Positions 3,501-45,900 of a stretch of 64,000 nt of DNA are shown piece after piece; the first letter of the stretch is position 1, and the number at the start of each line of letters is the position of its first letter. The DNA lies in the NCBI RefSeq assembly GCF_015709455.1, contig NZ_JADNQW010000005.1, forward strand, positions 3,616,001 through 3,680,000, given 5' to 3'. The position numbers and the translations under genes were made by a program. Origin of the DNA: Methylosinus sp. H3A (GTDB taxonomy: Bacteria > Pseudomonadota > Alphaproteobacteria > Rhizobiales > Beijerinckiaceae). The notes beneath the pieces are model-generated. The model had not been told where the DNA came from, did no database searches, and was given only the letters and a program-made list of their open reading frames with translations.

Positions 3501-3992
3501 AAGCGCGGCGCGACCGCCGCGCGGCTCGCCGCCGTCGTGCTCGACCGCGCCGAGCGGCGGACCAAATCCGGGTCCAAAATGGGCGTGGTCCAGCTCTCGG
3601 ACGACAGCGGCCAATATGAGGCGATCCTGTTCCAGGAGGGGCTCAACCAATATCGCGACCTGCTCGAGAAGGGCGCGACAGTGCTGGTGACGCTCTCCGC
3701 CGCGCTGGAAGGCGAGGATGTGCGGGCACGCATCACCGAGGTTCAGCCGCTCGCCGCCGCGGCCGCGCGGGCGCAAAAGGGGCTGCGCATCTTTCTGCAG
3801 GACGCCGCGCCGCTCGACGCGCTGAAGTCGCGGCTGGCGACGCGGGGCGAGGGCGAGGTGTCGATCGTCGTGGCGCTGGAGCGCATGGCCAGCGAGGTGG
3901 AGATCAAACTGCCGGGCGGCTATTCCGTCTCGGCCGATGTCGCCGGGGCGCTGAAGACGATCCCCGGCGTCCTCGCCGTGGAGCATGTTTGA
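525..3992 (+). CDS. dnaE: DNA polymerase III subunit alpha
   Basis: Replicative polymerase catalytic subunit, 1155 residues, the usual DnaE1 length. The N-terminal PHP domain opens with HLHVH (residues 11-15). The Pol III palm carries PGRGSGAGSL and then MPDFDIDF with catalytic Asp417 and Asp419, and the third Asp571 sits in KFDFLGL. Helix-hairpin-helix and OB-fold segments follow (KMGVVQLSDDSGQYEAILF). The ATG at 525 was preferred to in-frame starts from 456 because it follows GAGGAGG and begins directly with the conserved N-terminus. It is transcribed alone after the phasin terminator; the next gene on this strand is 214 nt away. Confidence 0.97.
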   Translation: MSVIDEVGFVHLHVHTAFSLREGALTLTRLIDLAQKDQMPALAVTDTDNLFGALEFSEKAAKAGVQPIPGVQLTIDFGDGTQSAVGATDGRGHIVLIAQSERGYANLMRLASRAYLEPALGEASHVSLDSLAANCEGLIALTGGAEGGLDAQFAKGRPEQARARLEALLPLFDGRLYVEIQRHGLDQERRVEPQLLDLAYRRGLPLVATNEPFFATAADFEAHDALLCIAEGTVTSVAERRRLSPQHYFKTRKEMRELFADLREATDSTVEIARRSAFRPLTRKPIMPRFMLDGEGGGESLEDIEARELRRQAKEGLEARLLAQPPAPGQTRETYDARLEFELDTIEKMRFPGYFLIVSDFIKYAKSQGIPVGPGRGSGAGSLVAYALTITDLDPLRFGLFFERFLNPERMSMPDFDIDFCQTRRGEVIDYVRERYGAEKVAQIITFGSFLARGVLRSVGRVLEMPLGQVDKLAKLVPQNPAKPVTLAEAVAGEQKLREAIDEDGKVARLFKIAAALEGLYSNASTHAAGVVIGDRPLDALVPLYRDPKSDMPATQFNMKWVEPAGLIKFDFLGLKTLTVLATAVDLVRRRAPDFDLAAIPLDDAETYAMLGRGETVGVFQLESAGMRKALVEMHADHFEDIIALVALYRPGPMANIPTYCAVKLGDEEPDYIHPKIEHILKETFGVIIYQEQVMQIAQVLSGYSLGEADLLRRAMGKKIKAEMDAQRERFVTGAVERGLTAQKASDIFDLLAKFADYGFNKSHAAAYALIAYQTAWFKAHYPVEFLAASMTLDKGNTDKLAEFRNEARRLGIAVEPPSIRRSGVDFDVAPGSDGNLAIRYALSAVKGVGEGQAESIVRTRGAAPFRNLSEFARRINPREVNKKVLENLACCGAFDELDADRARVVGAIETILACANRCAEDRQAGQNALFGGAEAEEEIVLPKSQPWTASEKLKREFDAAGFFLSGHPLDSYAGVLGRLRLTRWAEFTVAVKRGATAARLAAVVLDRAERRTKSGSKMGVVQLSDDSGQYEAILFQEGLNQYRDLLEKGATVLVTLSAALEGEDVRARITEVQPLAAAAARAQKGLRIFLQDAAPLDALKSRLATRGEGEVSIVVALERMASEVEIKLPGGYSVSADVAGALKTIPGVLAVEHV

Positions 3993-4020
3993 CGTCCCGC
4001 TCGGGAGGCCAGAGCTTTGC

Positions 4021-4066
4021 TCATTACATTAGGTAATGATGCCGAGTTATTGAAAATACGTAATAA
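4021..4066. promoter_or_regulatory. two adjacent AT-rich inverted repeats
   Basis: In the 214-nt gap after dnaE the sequence turns AT-rich. TCATTACATTAGGTAATGA (4021-4039) is a perfect 7-bp inverted repeat with a 5-nt spacer. TTATT at 4047-4051 pairs with AATAA at 4062-4066. No T tract follows, so they are not obvious terminators. They may be operator half-sites for the gene at 4207. No specific regulator is recognised. Confidence 0.4.
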
Positions 4067-4206
4067 GTCTCTTCACCTGAGATGATGCTTCAACATGCCT
4101 TTTCGCGTCCTGCGACGCTGCGCCTCTTCTGGCGCGCGGGCGACGCGCCTATCTTAGAAGCCAATCGCCGCGACGGGCGGCGCTCGCTCCGATCGAGGAG
4201 GCGGGA

Positions 4207-4548
4207 ATGGAAGAGGCCATCGGTTTTCTCGGAAGGCCAGACGCGGGTTTCCTGCCGCTCATCGTCATTGGCGCTCTGGTCGGCTGGCTGGTCGGAGCGC
4301 TCCTGTGGGGGACAAACTCGCTCTTTGCCGATATGGCGATCGGCGTCGCCGGGGCATGGCTCGGGGCGAAATTCGCCGATCTCGGCGGGCTCGCCGCCGA
4401 GGGCTCGATCGGCCATTTCCTCGCCGGCCTCCTCGGGTCCATAATCATCGTCTCCCTCTGGGCCCGAGTCGACGGCGAGAACCGTCGTCACGGCTTCGGA
4501 CCGCAGCCTCGCGCGCCCGTCCCGCCGGGCGAAAGACCGAGGCGTTAG
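4207..4548 (+). CDS. small membrane protein, GlsB/YeaQ/YmgE-like
   Basis: 113 residues with three hydrophobic, glycine-rich segments (about 17-35 [20 protein letters not shown], 40-58, 68-85) and a polar C-terminal tail ending in PPGERPRR. Size, Gly-rich helices and the GxxxG spacing match the transglycosylase-associated GlsB/YeaQ/YmgE family of inner-membrane stress proteins, whose biochemical role is unknown. GAGGAGGCGGGA lies just upstream of the ATG. lipA starts 8 nt after its stop, so the two may be co-transcribed. The family call is by pattern only. Confidence 0.65.
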
Positions 4549-4556
4549 GCATTGCC

Positions 4557-5534
4557 ATGACCGTTCTGCTCGATCTCCTCCATGACGACCCGCGCAAGCG
4601 CGACGCGGCCGCCGCCGCGCGCCATCCGGAAAAAGCGCATCGGCCGGACACGCCCGTCGTGCGCAAGCCGGATTGGATCCGCGTCAAGGCGCCGGGCTCG
4701 GCGGCCTGGCGCGAGACCGGGGAGATATTGCGCGGCGGCGGACTCTCGACCGTTTGTCAGGAGGCCTCCTGTCCCAATATCGGCGAGTGCTGGGAGCAAA
4801 AGCACGCGACCTTCCTCGTCATGGGGTCGGTTTGCACGCGCGCCTGCGCCTTCTGCAATGTGGCGACCGGCCTGCCGGCGGCGCTCGACCCGACCGAGCC
4901 GGAGAGGGTCGCGGAGGCGACGGCCAAGCTCGGCCTCTCCCATGTCGTCGTCACCTCGGTCGACCGCGATGATCTCGACGATGGCGGCGCCGCGCATATC
5001 GCCGAGACGATCCGCGCCATACGCGCCGCCTGTCCGACGACGACGATCGAGGTGCTGACGCCGGATTTCCTGCGCAAGGACGGCGCGCTGGAAAAAGTCG
5101 TCGCCGCGCGGCCGGATGTGTTCAACCATAATCTCGAGACCGTGCCGTCGCTCTATGTGACGGTGCGGCCGGGCGCCCGCTATTTCCACTCGCTGCGCCT
5201 GCTGCAGCGGGTCAAGGAGCTCAATTCCACGATCTTCACCAAATCCGGCCTGATGGTCGGGCTCGGCGAGGGGCGGAACGAGATTCTCCAGGTGATGGAC
5301 GATCTGCGTGTGGCCGATGTGGATTTCCTCACCATCGGTCAATATCTGCAACCGACCCGCAAGCACCATGAGGTCGCGCGTTTCGTGACGCCGCAGGAGT
5401 TCGAGGCCTTCACGACGATCGCCTACGCCAAGGGCTTTTCGATGGTGTCATCCTCGCCGCTCACCCGCTCCTCGCACCATGCCGGCGCAGATTTCGAGAG
5501 GCTGCGGGCAAAACGGCTCGGCGCGTCTCGATGA
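4557..5534 (+). CDS. lipA: lipoyl synthase
   Basis: Radical-SAM enzyme that inserts two sulfurs into protein-bound octanoyl groups to form the lipoyl cofactor. 325 residues. The auxiliary cluster motif CX4CX5C is Cys67, Cys72 and Cys78. The radical-SAM motif CX3CX2C is Cys93, Cys97 and Cys100 ([15 protein letters not shown]). The conserved C-terminal SSSPLTRSS, which supplies the serine ligand, is also present. The ATG at 4557 was chosen because the protein then begins like its family; no strong ribosome site is visible. Its last 74 nt overlap the convergent DUF488 gene. The adjacent START-domain gene is a common neighbour in alphaproteobacteria. Confidence 0.97.
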
Positions 5535-25510: not shown

Positions 25511-27085
25511 TCAGTTCTTGCCGATGGCCGCCTCCCCCTCCTCCACATAACGCGGGAAGACGGGGGCGGGCGCCGGCAGCGGCGCGCCGGGGATGAGCGC
25601 CTGCGCCTCGCCCGCCTGGACGAAATCGCGCGCCTCGGCTGGAACGCCGAGCAAACCAAGCAAGCTCGAGGCCGCGGCGGGAATGAAAGGCTGCAGCGCG
25701 ATCGCCAGCCGCCGCAGCGCCTCCGCCGTCACATAGAGGATCGTCTCCATGCGCTTCGGGTCGGTCTTCTTCTTGGCCCAGGGCTCCTCGCCGGCGAAAT
25801 AGCGATTGGCGTCCCCCACGACGCGGAACAGCTCCGCCAGCGCCTGATGCGGCGAATAGGCGTCCATCGCCTCGCGCGCCTTGCCGAGCGCCGCCGAGGC
25901 GTCGGCGAGCAGCGCGCGGTCGGCGTCGGTCAATTCGCCCGGCGTCGGAACGACGCCGCCGCAATTCTTGGCGATCATCGACAGCGAGCGCTGCGCCAGA
26001 TTGCCGAGGTCATTGGCGAGATCGGCGTTGATGCGATTGACGATCGCCTCATGCGAATAATTGCCGTCCTGGCCGAAGGGAATCTCGCGCAGGAAGAAAT
26101 AGCGCAGCTGATCGACGCCATAGCGCTGCGCGAGATCGATCGGATCGACGACATTGCCGACCGACTTCGACATCTTCTCCCCGCGGCTGAACAAATGGCC
26201 ATGCACGACGATCTGCTTGGGCAAGGGGACGCCGGCCGACATCAGAAAGGCCGGCCAATAGACCGCATGGAAGCGCGTGATATCCTTGCCGATGACATGG
26301 GCGTTCGCCGGCCAGAAGCGCGCGCGCTCCTCCTCCCCGGTCAGAAAGCCGGTCGCGGTGATGTAATTGGTGAGCGCGTCCACCCACACATACATCACAT
26401 GCGGCGAATTGGTCTCCGGCTTGGACGGGACAGGTATGCCCCAATCGAAAGTGGTGCGGCTGATCGAGAGGTCGGTGAGCCCGCGCTTCACGAAGGCGAC
26501 GATCTCGTTCCTGTATTTTTCTGGCGTGATGAATTCCGGATGCGCTTCGTAGAGCGCGAGCAGCTTCTCCTGATAGGCCGAGAGCTTGAAGAACCAGCTC
26601 TCCTCCTCCACCCATTCGACCGGCGTGCCGGTCGGCGCGAGCTTCTTGCCGTCGACCTCGGTGATCTCGCCCTCGTCGTAATAGGCCTCGTCACGCACCG
26701 AGTACCAGCCGGAATATTTGGCGAGATAAATATCGCCCGCCGCCTCCATGCGCTTCCATATCTCGAGCGCGGCGTCGGCGTGGCGCGGCTGCGTCGTGCG
26801 CACGACATCGTCGGCGAGCGCGTTCAGCGTCTCGCCCATGGTCTGGAACTGGTCGGCGGTGCGGTCGGCGAGCTGCTGCGGGGTCAGCCCCTCGCGCTCG
26901 GCGGTGCGCTGCATCTTCTGGCCGTGCTCGTCCATTCCGGTCACGAACAGCACATCGAAGCCGTCGAGCCGCTTGAAGCGCGCGAAGGCGTCGGTGGCGA
27001 TGCGTTCATACGCATGACCGATATGCGGGGCGCCATTCGCGTAAGGAATGGCGGTGGTGATCATGAAGGTCGGACGTTCAGCCAT
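25511..27085 (-). CDS. metG: methionyl-tRNA synthetase
   Basis: 524 residues. Class I synthetase: [20 protein letters not shown] with the HIGH motif, KMSKS loop ([20 protein letters not shown]), and anticodon-binding helices. The connective-peptide zinc knuckle cysteines seen in E. coli MetG are absent around [20 protein letters not shown], and the C-terminal EMAPII-like dimer domain is missing, as in other rhizobial enzymes. ATG 27085 fits family N-termini better than a GTG at 27091. In related genomes holB usually lies directly upstream; here 1.37 kb of foreign-looking DNA separates them. Confidence 0.96.
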
Positions 27086-34822: not shown

Positions 34823-35704
34823 ATGAGCAATGTGATTCGTCTGCAGGCCGGCCCCGGCGACACGGCCGAAGTCTCTCCTCTCGGCGCCGAGCTCCTCTCG
34901 TGGCGCGCGGAAGGCGTCGACCTGATCTGGGAGCCGCAGCCCGAGGTCTGGCCGCAGACTGCGCCGCTGCTCTTTCCCGTGGTGGGCTGGACGCGCGACG
35001 GAATTCGCGTCGACGGCGCGCATTTCCCGCTCGGCCTGCACGGCTTCGCGCGGCATAAGCGCTTCGCGATCCGGGAGCGGTCGCCGGAGACGGTCTCTCT
35101 CGTGCTCGAGGAGGACGAGGACAGCCGTGCGCTCTATCCCTTCGCCTTTCGTCTCGAGGCGCATTTCGTCCTGAGGCCGGGCGAATTGCGCGTCTCGCTG
35201 AGCGCGACCAATCGCGACGCGCGGTCCCTGCCCTATGCGGTCGGACTCCATCCGGGATTTCGCTGGCCTCTCGGCGGCTCGGCCGCGCCGCATGCGATCC
35301 ATTTCGACGCGCCTGAGCAAGGCGAGGTTCCTGTCATCGCGCCCGGTGGCCTGCTCTCCTCCCACCGACGCGCCATCCCACTGGAAAATGGGCGGCTTCC
35401 GCTTTCCGCCGAGCTCCTCGAAAAGGAAGCGCTCTGCTTTCTGGGCGCGGCGAGCCGCCGTCTCTTTTACGACAATGGCGACGGGCTCGGGCTTTCGGTC
35501 GAGCTCGATGATTTTCCCCATATCGCGCTATGGGCGCTGCCGCCCGCGCCTTTCCTCTGCATAGAGGCCTGGACCGGGCACGGAGACCCGGAGGATTTTC
35601 GCGGCGATCTCTATGAGAAGCCCTCCATGCGAATCCTCGCCCCCGGCGAGAGCGCCGCGCATGCCGCAACTTTCCGCTTGGAGCGGCGGGAGGGAAGCGA
35701 ATAG
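34823..35704 (+). CDS. aldose 1-epimerase family protein
   Basis: 293 residues. Galactose-mutarotase fold: AEVSPLGAELLSWRAEGVDL, LFPVVGWTRDGIRVDGAHFP, GLHGFARHKRFAIRE (His in the active-site pair), PYAVGLHPGFRWPL (second His) and CIEAWTGHGDPEDF (base Glu region). Probably interconverts sugar anomers, perhaps phosphorylated ones as in YeaD; the substrate is unknown. ATG 34823 is preferred over upstream in-frame starts because it opens with the conserved VIRLQAG-type strand. Followed 68 nt later by cysK. Confidence 0.9.
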   Translation: MSNVIRLQAGPGDTAEVSPLGAELLSWRAEGVDLIWEPQPEVWPQTAPLLFPVVGWTRDGIRVDGAHFPLGLHGFARHKRFAIRERSPETVSLVLEEDEDSRALYPFAFRLEAHFVLRPGELRVSLSATNRDARSLPYAVGLHPGFRWPLGGSAAPHAIHFDAPEQGEVPVIAPGGLLSSHRRAIPLENGRLPLSAELLEKEALCFLGAASRRLFYDNGDGLGLSVELDDFPHIALWALPPAPFLCIEAWTGHGDPEDFRGDLYEKPSMRILAPGESAAHAATFRLERREGSE

Positions 35705-35772: not shown

Positions 35773-36804
35773 ATGAAATTCGCCGCCAATGTCATCGAAG
35801 CGATCGGCAACACTCCGCTCATCGAATTGAAGGCGGCGTCGAAGGCGACCGGCTGCCGCATTCTCGGCAAGGCGGAATTCATGAATCCGGGCGGCTCGGT
35901 GAAGGACCGCGCCGCGCTCTCCATCGTGCAGGCCGCCATCGCGGAAGGCTCGCTGAAGCCGGGCGGCACCATCGTCGAGGGCACGGCAGGCAATACGGGC
36001 ATCGGCCTCGCGCTGGTCGCCAATGCGCTGGGTTTCCGCACCGTCATCGTGATCCCAGAGACGCAGAGCCAGGAGAAGAAGGACACGCTGCGCCTGCAGG
36101 GCGCGCAGCTGGTCGAGGTGCCGGCGGTTCCCTACGCCAATCCCAATAATTATGTGAAGCTCTCGGGCCGCCTCGCCGAGCGTCTCGCCAAGGAGAGCCC
36201 GCAAGGGGCGATCTGGGCCAATCAATTCGACAATGTGGCCAATCGCGACGCCCATATTCGCGGCACCGGGCCGGAAATTTTTGCCGAGACCGACGGCGAG
36301 ATCGACGGATTCGTCTGTGCGGTGGGCACGGGCGGCACGCTCGCGGGCATCGGCATCGCGCTCAAGGAGCGCAAACCCTCCGTGAAGATCGCCATCGCTG
36401 ATCCGCTCGGCGCGGCGCTCTATTCCTATTACACGACCGGCGAGCTGAAGGCCTCGGGTTCCTCCATCACAGAGGGCATCGGGCAAGGCCGCATCACCGC
36501 CAATCTCGAGGACGCGCCCATCGATCTCGCCTATCAGATACCCGATACGGAGGCGTTGCCGATCATCTTCGATCTCGCCGAGAACGAAGGCCTGCTGCTC
36601 GGCGGCTCCTCGGGCGTCAATGTCGCCGGCGCGATCCGCCTCGCCAAGGAGCTGGGGCCGGGCCATACGATCGTGACCATCCTCGCCGATCTCGGCACGC
36701 GCTACGCGTCCAAGCTCTATAATCTCGAGTTTTTGCGCGGGCAGAATCTGCCGACGCCGCGCTGGCTCGAGTCGACGGGCAAGATCGATCCGGGATTTGT
36801 ATGA
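35773..36804 (+). CDS. cysK: cysteine synthase A
   Basis: 343 residues, fold type II PLP enzyme making cysteine from O-acetylserine and sulfide. PLP lysine Lys44 in FMNPGGSVKDRAAL; TIVEGTAGNTGIGLALVANA binds the substrate carboxylate; GTGGTLAGIG is the phosphate-binding loop; C-terminal GGSSGVNVAGAIRL. Slightly longer at the C-terminus (LEFLRGQNLPTPRWL) than E. coli CysK, as in many alphaproteobacteria. ATG preceded by AAAGGACGGG. It is a single gene; the next start is 100 nt away. Confidence 0.95.
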   Translation: MKFAANVIEAIGNTPLIELKAASKATGCRILGKAEFMNPGGSVKDRAALSIVQAAIAEGSLKPGGTIVEGTAGNTGIGLALVANALGFRTVIVIPETQSQEKKDTLRLQGAQLVEVPAVPYANPNNYVKLSGRLAERLAKESPQGAIWANQFDNVANRDAHIRGTGPEIFAETDGEIDGFVCAVGTGGTLAGIGIALKERKPSVKIAIADPLGAALYSYYTTGELKASGSSITEGIGQGRITANLEDAPIDLAYQIPDTEALPIIFDLAENEGLLLGGSSGVNVAGAIRLAKELGPGHTIVTILADLGTRYASKLYNLEFLRGQNLPTPRWLESTGKIDPGFV

Positions 36805-36904
36805 GCGGCGCCTCGCACGCCCGTGACTCCCGCTACGCCTCGCGATAATCTGACGCCCGCGCCGGACGCCGACGCAGGATTTGGATCGTTGCGGGATTTT
36901 CAAA

Positions 36905-37615
36905 ATGAGTTTCGACGCGGCGGAGCCGGCGGACATCGCCGATCGACGATTGTTTCGCCGCATGACGGCGATCGGCTTTCTTCTGTTTCTCGTTGTCTGG
37001 GCCTGCCTGCCGAATATCGGACCCGTCTTCCGAACCTATCATCTCGGGAGCGAGGTCATGGAGCCGACGATCGAATATGAGGAGGCGACGGTCTGGGCGA
37101 ACCGGCTCGCCTATGGTCTCGGGCCCTTCAGTTATGATTGGTTTCCACTCCCCCTCGCCGGCCGTTGGCCAGATCTTCTTCCGATGCGCGGCGACGTCAT
37201 CGTGTTCCGCTTGGAGGATGGCCGCGACATGGTGATGCGCGTGGTCGGACTGCCGGGCGACCGCGTGAGGCTGCTTCGCAACGAGCTGTGGATCAATGAG
37301 GCGCAGGTTCCGCGGCGCGTTCTCGACCGCCCGTCGGACGTGCCGGCGGAGGCCGATTGCGACAGCCGATTGGTCGAGGAGCGATTGCCCGAGGGGCGCA
37401 GCTTCACACATTACGAAAAGATCGTCTGCTCGGACAAGTCGACGCCGCCGCTGTCGACGACACCGATCGTCGAAGTCCCGGCGCGGCGCCTCTTCGTGCT
37501 CGGCGACAATCGCGACAATGCCGCGGATTCGCGCGTCGCGACGGAGGACGGGGGCGTCGGCCTCGTGCCGGTCGAGAGCATCGTCGGCCGCATCGAATTC
37601 GTCTACGACCGCTGA
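36905..37615 (+). CDS. signal peptidase I homologue lacking catalytic Ser and Lys
   Basis: 236 residues. One N-terminal membrane helix (MTAIGFLLFLVVWACLP), then S26 family boxes in order: HLGSEVMEPTIEYEEATVWA (box B), RGDVIVFRLEDGRDMVMRVV followed by GLPGDRVRLL (boxes C/D), and LFVLGDNRDNAADSRV (box E). The nucleophile position, normally Ser directly before Met-x-Pro-Thr, is Val, and the general base Lys before Arg-Val-Val-Gly is Met. Everything else is conserved, so the protein should fold but not cleave signal peptides in the usual way. ATG at 36905 follows a TTG alternative at 36881. Overlaps mobA by 13 nt, tail to tail. Confidence 0.85.
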   Translation: MSFDAAEPADIADRRLFRRMTAIGFLLFLVVWACLPNIGPVFRTYHLGSEVMEPTIEYEEATVWANRLAYGLGPFSYDWFPLPLAGRWPDLLPMRGDVIVFRLEDGRDMVMRVVGLPGDRVRLLRNELWINEAQVPRRVLDRPSDVPAEADCDSRLVEERLPEGRSFTHYEKIVCSDKSTPPLSTTPIVEVPARRLFVLGDNRDNAADSRVATEDGGVGLVPVESIVGRIEFVYDR

Positions 37616-38229
37616 GCCTCGAGGCTCGCCGCAATGCGCTCGGCCTGCTCGACGTCCTCCGGCCGGTTGACGTTGAAGAATGGATCGTAAGGCGCGTCCG
37701 GCCACTCCACCAGCGTATTGGCGTGGCGCTCGATGAACCCCGAGACTTTGCGCAAATCCTCCTTCACCAGCGCATGGCGCAGCGGCTCGCGCAGCGCCAC
37801 CGGCCATAGAGCGACGGCGTGATGCACGCGGTCGCCCGATTTGGCGACGGCGATCTCCGCTTTCGCGTCTGCGCGCGCGCTCGCGAGGCGCTGGGCGAGA
37901 TCATGCGGGATGAAAGGCGTATCCGCCGGAACGCTCAGCACCAGCGGAATATCCGGGAAATTGGCGGCGACATGGTCGAGCCCGGCGAGCACGCCGGCGA
38001 GTGGACCGGCGAAGCCCTCCACCTTGTCCGGCACGATCGGCAGATGGAAGGCGGCGTAGCGCTGCGGATCGCCATTGGCGTTGAGCGCGAGCCGCACGCA
38101 TTGCGGCGCGAGCCGGCGCAGAAGATGCTCGAGGATCGGCGCGCCGCCGACCTCGAGCAGCGGCTTGGCGACGCCGCCCATGCGCCGCGCCTGCCCGCCG
38201 GCCAGAATGAGTCCGAAGCAGCGCGTCAT
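37603..38229 (-). CDS. mobA: molybdenum cofactor guanylyltransferase
   Basis: 208 residues from ATG 38229. Nucleotidyltransferase signature GLILAGGQARRMGGVAKPLL at the N-terminus, then LALNANGDPQRYAAFHLPIV, GPLAGVLAGLDHVAANFPDI, LSVPADTPFIPHDL and C-terminal FFNVNRPEDVEQAERI. Attaches GMP to molybdopterin for DMSO-reductase-family enzymes. No other moa/mob genes are in the window. Ends inside the 3' end of the S26 homologue. Confidence 0.95.
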   Translation of the reverse strand: MTRCFGLILAGGQARRMGGVAKPLLEVGGAPILEHLLRRLAPQCVRLALNANGDPQRYAAFHLPIVPDKVEGFAGPLAGVLAGLDHVAANFPDIPLVLSVPADTPFIPHDLAQRLASARADAKAEIAVAKSGDRVHHAVALWPVALREPLRHALVKEDLRKVSGFIERHANTLVEWPDAPYDPFFNVNRPEDVEQAERIAASLEAQRS

Positions 38230-38252: not shown

Positions 38253-39119
38253 TCAAAACCTATACCATAGAGCGCCGAGAAGACCGCGCTCGGCGGAATC
38301 ATTGACGCCGCGCAGCGCCGCGCGCACGCCGAGCTGCACGGCGACCTCGTTCGTCACATCGCAAACCGCGCTCAGCTGCGCCTTTTGTGACGACATGAAA
38401 GGCGCCGAGCCGCTCCAGGGTGAGACGGCGATGAAGCTCTGCGCCAGCAGCAGCACGCCGTCGATCGGCCGCAGGCCGAAGGTCATCTCGCCGCGAAGCT
38501 CGTCGCCGCTCTGGCCCGTGGAGCGAAAGCCGAGCTGCGCCTCGCCGAAACCGGAAATGCCGAGCAGCTCGAGCGGCCAGCCGAGCTGGAGACGCACGTC
38601 TTCCTGGAGCCGATGCTTCATGTCGAGATAGGTCTGCGCGGCGGGCGTCGCGGCGCGCAGGCTCGCTTGCACGGAGAGGACCGTCGCGCCCCATTCGAGA
38701 AGGCGCAGCCGGCCGCCGAGCCAGCCGGCGCCGAGTCCTTCGTAACGCGCGCCGCCGCCCACCCCCGGCGGCAGATAGAGCGGCGCGCCGGCGAGCGCTT
38801 CGGCGGTCAGAAACTGCAATTGCTCGAGCTGACGCGAGCCATCGGACCCTCGGAAGCGCATATAGCTCGACTCGGCGACGAAGGTGAGCTCGTCGATGAG
38901 GCCGTATTCGACATAGGCCTGCGTCTCGAATTTGGCGTAGGAGGGCGCGGCGACGAGCTTGCCGCGCGAGTCATAGGCCTTGTGCGCGTCGGCGAAACTC
39001 GTCGAGACGATGACGATCCCCTCGCCTGGTTTCTGTAGAAACGCGCCGGCGCGGCACGCCGTCGAATGGAGAATCGACAGCGCCGCGGCGCAGGAGCAAA
39101 AACGCGCCCATGAACGCAT
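38253..39119 (-). CDS. outer-membrane beta-barrel protein, unknown role
   Basis: 288 residues. Signal peptide MRSWARFCSCAAALSILHST with likely cleavage after CRA. The mature part is made of alternating amphipathic strands with Gly/aromatic turns (AYVEYGLIDELTFVAESSYM, GGARYEGLGAGWLGGRLRLL, LGWPLELLGISGFGEAQLGF, ELRGEMTFGLRPIDGVLLLA) and ends in an aromatic LLGALWYRF, the outer-membrane insertion signature. It is not assigned to a named family; it resembles predicted barrel or transporter-like proteins of unknown function. 23 nt upstream of mobA on the same strand. Confidence 0.75.
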   Translation of the reverse strand: MRSWARFCSCAAALSILHSTACRAGAFLQKPGEGIVIVSTSFADAHKAYDSRGKLVAAPSYAKFETQAYVEYGLIDELTFVAESSYMRFRGSDGSRQLEQLQFLTAEALAGAPLYLPPGVGGGARYEGLGAGWLGGRLRLLEWGATVLSVQASLRAATPAAQTYLDMKHRLQEDVRLQLGWPLELLGISGFGEAQLGFRSTGQSGDELRGEMTFGLRPIDGVLLLAQSFIAVSPWSGSAPFMSSQKAQLSAVCDVTNEVAVQLGVRAALRGVNDSAERGLLGALWYRF

Positions 39120-45114: not shown

Positions 45115-45900
45115 ATGAGATGCGCCATGCGGTCTTTTGTGCGAATGAGTGAGATGGACGAGTCCAAGAGGGACGGCCAGACGGCGACGACGGGCGACGC
45201 GCCCGCCACCCCGGCCCTTGTCTCCGACAGGCGGACCGCCGGAGAGCGGGGCGGCCCCGGTCAGCGCGCCCTCACTGCCGAGACCAAGGAAACGCGCGTC
45301 GCCAATCTGACCGGCGCGATGCGGCGAGCGCGTCTCGCCAACGCCGAGCGCTCGGGCGTGCTCGCCGATCTGCGCGACGCCGAGACCGCGCGGCTCGAGA
45401 TATTACGCGACCATTTGGGTCCGGTTCTCGCCCAGCTGCCGGAGGATTGCGATCTCTTCGACATCGGCGTCTCGCATGGCGATCGGCCGCGCCTCTTCAT
45501 CGACCATGTCGGATTCGTCGAGATGGGCCGCGATCGCCGCACCTTCCGCTTTCTGCAGGACACGCGCCACGGCCGCGTCACCATCGGCGAGAGCGACAAT
45601 GTCGCGACGGTGGTCGAGGCGATCACCGAATATATCGCCCATCGGCTGATCGAGCGCGAAAGAGCGCTGGCTTTCGATTTCGCCGGCCAGGGCGGCGCCC
45701 GCGCCTTCGCCGAAGAGGTGAAGAAGAAGCGGATCGCGGCCCCGACGGCGAGACTGCCCGTCCTGCCCCGGCCCGGCGGGATCGGCGAGAAAGTCTACCG
45801 GGCGGCGCTGTTCCTGGCGCAGGGCGCTGGCGCGGCGGCTTTCTTCTTTCTGCTGTGGCAGCTCGCCGTCTACGCCATCGGCCCTTATCTGACGCGCTGA
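45115..45900 (+). CDS. C-terminally membrane-anchored protein of unknown function
   Basis: 261 residues from ATG 45115; in-frame ATGs at 45127, 45145 and 45154 are all possible, and if TATAAT at 45107-45112 is the -10 box a later one is needed. Residues 1-65 are polar and low complexity. The central part (RLEILRDHLGPVLAQLPEDC ... ATVVEAITEYIAHRLIERER) is a compact mixed domain. A single hydrophobic helix (ALFLAQGAGAAAFFFLLWQL, then AVYAIGPYL) ends the protein, so it is probably tail-anchored with the domain in the cytoplasm. No family recognised. Confidence 0.75.
   Translation: MRCAMRSFVRMSEMDESKRDGQTATTGDAPATPALVSDRRTAGERGGPGQRALTAETKETRVANLTGAMRRARLANAERSGVLADLRDAETARLEILRDHLGPVLAQLPEDCDLFDIGVSHGDRPRLFIDHVGFVEMGRDRRTFRFLQDTRHGRVTIGESDNVATVVEAITEYIAHRLIERERALAFDFAGQGGARAFAEEVKKKRIAAPTARLPVLPRPGGIGEKVYRAALFLAQGAGAAAFFFLLWQLAVYAIGPYLTR

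Follow-up and report, generated by a model that had tools for sequence, protein, structure and literature searches.

Dead signal peptidases are, going by excerpts of two papers, a kind already known from Gram-positive bacteria, with SipA and SpsA as the examples. In the passages of PMC4049620 that concern it, SipA of Streptococcus pyogenes is described as keeping its cleft, showing no detectable peptidase activity and being needed for pilus polymerisation, and SpsA of Staphylococcus aureus is presented, in the part of PMC12445088 devoted to it, as a dispensable second homologue of type I signal peptidase, devoid of two conserved catalytic residues; a further paper, PMC13104630, deals in its excerpted part with protein A signals. 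The protein described here is encoded in a 64,000-nucleotide stretch of the Methylosinus sp. H3A genome (the window), and has in common with SipA, as excerpted, the absence of the catalytic dyad from an S26 fold, and with SpsA that it is a second homologue without two catalytic residues, the latter likeness being one of description and not of sequence. The SipA gene is located with pilin and sortase genes and its Gram-positive host cannot polymerise pili without the product, whereas the host genus of the window is one that we take to be Gram-negative, and neither a pilin nor a sortase is found among the seven neighbours of the window gene scanned by Pfam (one of these without any Pfam match). 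Its nearest relatives, unlike those of SipA, are probably lepB2 copies of its own bacterial family. The open-licence literature searched, judged partly by title, yielded no report of a Gram-negative dead signal peptidase, and likewise no paper on a type I signal peptidase pseudoenzyme, on an inactive signal peptidase, on a Methylosinus signal peptidase I or on the catalytic lysine of alphaproteobacterial signal peptidases; the host group and the exchange pattern set out below were not met in that literature and are new relative to it.

The open reading frame (Table 1) translates into a protein running from MSFDAAEP to VYDR before the stop, which scores 96.3 bits against PF10502 (Peptidase_S26; cut-off 22.9) and 93.1 bits against TIGR02227 (cut-off 47). 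Its structure model is a confident S26 fold with one N-terminal helix, and the most hydrophobic 19-residue stretch starts at residue 20. The modelled fold matches LepB–inhibitor complexes, which is simply LepB's fold, as modelled, and says nothing beyond it. Profile score and fold are those of an active S26A enzyme; the catalytic Ser and the general-base Lys are absent. An earlier note on this DNA had the nucleophilic Ser replaced by Val and the general-base Lys by Met, and alignment to the S26 family confirms both exchanges as Val51 and Met111. The same note held that the family boxes are kept. This is true of RGD and GDNRDN but not of GDNRDNAADSR, the first Ala of which takes the place of the Ser that stabilises the catalytic Lys (Ser278 of the E. 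coli signal peptidase in the relevant passage of PMC4049620). As aligned, the active site is more altered than the note said, with Ala206 as a third changed site. A single misread base cannot explain Val51 and is ruled out, because GTC lies at least two base changes from every Ser codon, and a sequencing error at Met111, one change from Lys, is ruled out by three orthologues that are also without Lys (Met, Ala and Ser). Because Ser, Lys and supporting Ser are all gone, cleavage by the known Ser–Lys mechanism would be excluded under established S26 chemistry.

Table 1. Features of the cysK–mobA locus, in window coordinates
Feature	Position	Strand	Basis
cysK-like PALP enzyme (PF00291), conserved left flank	35773..36804	+	Pfam, synteny
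Variable cassette interval, cysK stop to mobA stop	36805..37602	.	Much changed or missing in related genomes
Pseudo-signal-peptidase I, S26 protein, 236 aa	36905..37615	+	ORF, family profiles, orthologues
N-terminal helix, residues 8–41, likely membrane anchor	36926..37027	+	Structure model, hydropathy
Val51, codon GTC, in place of nucleophilic Ser	37055..37057	+	S26 alignment
Met111, codon ATG, in place of general-base Lys	37235..37237	+	S26 alignment
Ala206, codon GCC, in place of Lys-supporting Ser of active enzymes	37520..37522	+	S26 alignment; role from PMC4049620
mobA-like nucleotidyltransferase (PF12804), conserved right flank, convergent	37603..38229	-	Pfam, synteny

The genome of the window (G000) holds five S26 matches in total, among them an intact LepB at C5:970284-970940 (-) with IPSGSM and YIKRVIG. 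The intact lepB that the earlier note had suggested looking for is thus present in the window's own genome, and an intact LepB with all four residues occurs in 10 of 10 genus genomes searched. Against a chance substitution stands the retention of Lys in 66 of 66 distinct non-orthologous S26 frames picked by profile from loci fetched by homology. This count covers the best 30 loci or fewer per search from 199 sampled genomes of the family and 397 of the order, sets aside the own genome's further S26 matches L003–L005 (not picked by profile) and counts apart the frames from the locus set obtained in part with the motif DNRDNAAD; lower in the match lists of the two samples a Lys-less orthologue could still occur. 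We consider it fairly probable, by analogy with what is proposed for SipA, that the window protein is a dead lepB paralogue kept as a membrane-anchored, non-cutting binder of exported peptides, with a partner that varies by strain.

Orthologues are found in 4 of the 10 genus genomes, each between cysK and mobA. The columns Ser88/Ser90/Lys145/Ser278 read S/V/M/A in the window protein itself (100% identity), S/S/M/A in G187 (72%), S/S/A/A in Methylosinus sporium DSM 17706 (G042, NZ_PUIV01000023.1; 60%) and A/D/S/S in G161 (46%), and the residues ahead of the Ser site differ among the four. Lys is therefore gone from all four (Met, Met, Ala, Ser) and the nucleophilic Ser from two (Val, Asp), for which the simplest order would be that Lys was lost first and Ser later. 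The earlier note had asked for orthologues with the same Val/Met pair and had named their absence as a sign of a recent dead gene: the loss of Lys is common to the three relatives, and Val occurs only in the window's own genome. All four fall into a single group (SH-aLRT 92), and so are an old Lys-less subfamily and not a product of sequencing error. The retention of Ser90 in two aligned orthologues speaks against the reading of a dead, non-cutting paralogue.

The same Ser90, together with Ser49, two residues ahead of Val51, is what could favour a protein that is still an enzyme and relies on a substitute nucleophile or base, be it Ser49 or a Lys or His from elsewhere, and the earlier note had proposed a relocated nucleophile in the Ser of GSEVM. 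This Ser49 occupies the ordinary Ser88 position of active LepB, a column that holds Ser in nearly all Lys-bearing rows aligned and Ala in G161, and as a relocated nucleophile it is rejected. The four orthologues have no Lys or His position in common, and only two Lys occur in the whole window protein. We regard continued catalysis by such a route as highly improbable.

A whole-genome search gave no orthologue in the other six genus genomes (G078, G174, G146, G199, G105 and G128), of which G199 is only 86% complete, and a weak 37% match in G174 lies in a longer frame that keeps Lys. From cysK stop to mobA stop there are 13 bases in G078, 10 in G174 and 87 in G146. In G105 no cysK is present within the stretch taken around mobA, and in G128 the contig ends 660 bases beyond mobA, with only chance matches there. 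The junction of G199 holds a different ORF (L097 3340-3951, +), and because of this the cysK–mobA junction may accept other genes too. A plasmid origin was rejected: tblastn against plasmids returned 167 records, all below 60% identity and thus no close orthologue, the eight listed being Azospirillum at 35–37%.

The nearest neighbours of the S26 gene are cysK, mobA (which overlaps its 3' end by 13 bases), an aldose epimerase and a product that no Pfam family matches, and none of the neighbours scanned by Pfam is an operon or partner gene that points to a substrate. The protein without Pfam match (window 38253-39119, -; 288 aa) adjoins mobA in all ten genus genomes, with 56–87% identity in the other nine. 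Neither promoter nor terminator was found in 36650-37750 (chance expectation 0.2 and 0.8), and for this reason co-transcription of the S26 gene with cysK is possible.

Concerning origin, of the loci read from beyond the genus, those most similar to the window protein hold intact lepB2 copies (L036/L076 of G139, L038/L077 of G025 and L037 of G038), with 44%, 38% and 39% identity to it, respectively. Unlike the window protein, these copies have Ser, Lys and supporting Ser all present, and in G139 and G025 lepB2 adjoins another Lys-bearing lepB and is not at cysK–mobA. In a quick tree of 58 rows with long branches, from which the three catalytic columns were omitted, the group of four lies near L036, L037 and L038 through forks supported at 81–84 and drawn open, and two long Bacteroidota rows sit inside these lepB2 forks (81–84). 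On this placement the S26 protein would be a catalytically dead paralogue that probably arose from an extra lepB copy which was active at first.

Lys-less S26 paralogues also occur outside the group of four, in Rhodobacteraceae and kin, Phenylobacterium, Sphingomonas, Bauldia and two Bacteroidota bins, and like the window protein they have another residue in place of Lys (Met, Phe, His, Gly or Tyr) and Ala for the supporting Ser. The locus set concerned was found partly with the query's own motif DNRDNAAD, so that its link between Ala and Lys loss is biased by selection: within it, 24 of 34 distinct S26 frames are without Lys (7 Phe, 6 Gly, 5 His, 4 Met, 1 Tyr and 1 Ala, the last being the M. 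sporium orthologue), and Ala stands at the supporting Ser in 24/24 Lys-less against 2/10 Lys-bearing frames. For 19 of these 24 Lys-less frames the profile alignment does not reach the Ser column, and among 20 full frames inspected an SxSM-like site is seen in some and absent from others. On the whole tree the Lys state changes five times; for Lys-less rows outside the genus, of which 17 of 23 frames are included (L011, L014, L025, L027, L029 and L030 were left out as presumably similar to retained rows), the starred branches force three changes, regains possibly among them. Lys loss in S26 paralogues, mostly of Alphaproteobacteria, looks like a repeated event in this partly motif-drawn sample.

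Several of these Lys-less paralogues have extra N-terminal parts, which in L012 and L015 are DUF805. In L015 of Marivivens (3642-5531, +) a canonical lepB is followed directly by a DUF805–S26 fusion with Gly for Lys, and then by a gene that, going by the starts of the L015 sequences, we take to be rnc-like; Lys-to-Gly copies are also seen in L011, L012, L014, L026 and L027, and each of these loci has a Lys-bearing copy as well. Phenylobacterium S26 proteins with His or Met for Lys occur in L023, L024, L025, L029, L030 and L031, with an extra hydrophobic N-terminal part in each of the five inspected in full (L023, L024, L025, L030 and L031). Small Rhodobacterales S26 proteins with Phe for Lys are encoded in L010 (5112-5669), L013 (4848-5468), L016 (1998-2636) and L020 (1913-2581), all on the + strand, and a C-x-CLKC stretch near the N terminus is common to the last three.

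Selection on the gene was assessed from dN/dS, which between orthologues is 0.32–0.48, against 0.03–0.30 in the flanks and lepB. For the own lineage since G187 the value is 0.47 (bootstrap 95% 0.27–0.91), or 0.35 with G161 as outgroup, from uncorrected and small lineage counts (25 N, 18 S) and over a span that covers time before and after Ser loss; the G187 lineage gives 0.58 (0.36–0.99), and the G161 lineage 0.91, which is near neutral on a long branch near saturation. The frame is open in all four copies, with no stop and with indels in frame only. In simulations of neutral change, with indels not counted, copies stayed stop-free in 159/400 cases at 0.1, 106/400 at 0.2, 90/400 at 0.25 and 56/400 at 0.5 substitutions per site. 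Because 159 of 400 neutral copies are stop-free at 0.1 substitutions per site, a frame that stayed open along just the own lineage says little about constraint; taking the four together, we judge it unlikely that all stayed open over long branches by chance.

These numbers bear on the possibility of a slowly dying gene, in which a redundant lepB2 lost Lys, and then Ser in some lineages, and is drifting toward loss. Such a course would fit the absence of a match from six of ten genus genomes and the short spacers of G078 and G174, the dN/dS above that of the flanks, with the G161 value and the upper bound for G187 both close to one, and the ease with which neutral copies stay stop-free at the lowest divergence simulated. 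It is less readily squared with four open frames whose indels are all in frame, survival of which by chance is unlikely on the longer branches, with an own-lineage dN/dS interval that excludes 1, or with the core boxes RGD and GDNRDN, which remain, and we hold it to be unlikely. Constraint on the S26 gene is real but relaxed and weak. The earlier note's proposal of a pseudoenzyme retained under selection is supported by the intact LepB elsewhere, the Lys-less orthologues at the same locus, the open frames, the dN/dS below 1 and the confident S26 fold; its wording that the rest of the protein is without decay is too strong for a gene that evolves much faster than its neighbours and with a divergence unlike theirs.

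This divergence is most pronounced between G187 and G161, where the S26 gene has a dS of 1.10 (1.13 by another alignment; values above 1 are near saturation), against 0.07–0.22 in ten flanking genes and 0.03 in the canonical lepB. Nucleotide identity of this pair is 96–99% over most of cysK, drops in its last 100 or so bases, stands at 44–74% in windows across the S26 gene and is again 87–98% within mobA. Own versus M. sporium, the gene has a dS of 1.01 against 0.24–0.62 in six flanks, and own versus G187 it has 0.50 against 0.28–0.42 in ten flanks, a modest excess that does not need recombination to explain it. Flank genes were chosen by synteny from regions that span 16–17 kb in G187 and in G161 but 10.7 kb in M. 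sporium. Of the window's genes, the one at 25511 lies outside these regions and has no value, and that at 45115 gave one for own–G161 only. The gene tree pairs the own copy with G187 (support 90), whereas flank dS puts G187 closest to G161. Compared in this way, the S26 gene looks like an exchangeable cassette, for which gene replacement via recombination in the flanks would be the plainest reading. The aldose epimerase (window 34823-35704, +) is nearly identical between G187 and G161 (dS 0.07) and unusually diverged in M. sporium (dS 0.62–0.71 from the other three copies), possibly another sign of exchange near the cysK–mobA locus.

Similar flanks around a gene that is strongly diverged or absent, with the break near its edges, and an allele grouping of own with G187 that conflicts with flank distances, are also what a diversifying recognition or decoy protein would leave behind, its LepB-like cleft binding an external or strain-specific ligand while antagonistic or frequency-dependent selection drives the swapping of alleles. 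Plain recombination with relatives outside the sample would, however, yield exchange as well, the known alleles number four, of which own and G187 differ just modestly more than their flanks, and the fold match to LepB–inhibitor complexes shows LepB's fold alone. We find such a protein improbable; its ligand might be a lipopeptide that inhibits LepB, or an exported partner that varies. Only a little less doubtful is that cysK–mobA is an exchange site where non-cutting signal peptidase alleles are passed around through homologous recombination between flanking sequences, their diversity being maintained by the binding of variable partners; the partner in the cleft would then, at the same low probability, be for example a strain-specific exported protein or a LepB-directed inhibitor.

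The reading that we prefer, a dead lepB paralogue that binds without cutting, would anchor the protein in the inner membrane, the S26 domain facing the periplasm. By analogy with SipA, binding of an exported protein or of LepB without cleavage is the most likely activity: the S26 domain would hold either LepB or the part of an exported protein around its cleavage site, and the window protein would thereby serve as a chaperone, holdase or modulator. Were the partner to differ between strains, exchange of divergent versions would be favoured. It counts against a binder that the gene is dispensable for the genus as a whole, since it is not found in 6 of 10 genomes, that constraint on it is weak, and that its scanned neighbours point to no substrate.

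The locus would be a Gram-negative case of a dead signal peptidase in which the evolutionary steps are visible, and one where a gene seems to change versions between flanking genes that remain similar. With Lys lost from all four orthologues and Ser from two, it offers a natural series for the change from protease to binding protein, and if non-cutting alleles do circulate at an exchange site here, Lys loss would be a path that Alphaproteobacteria have taken more than once in turning a protease into a binder.
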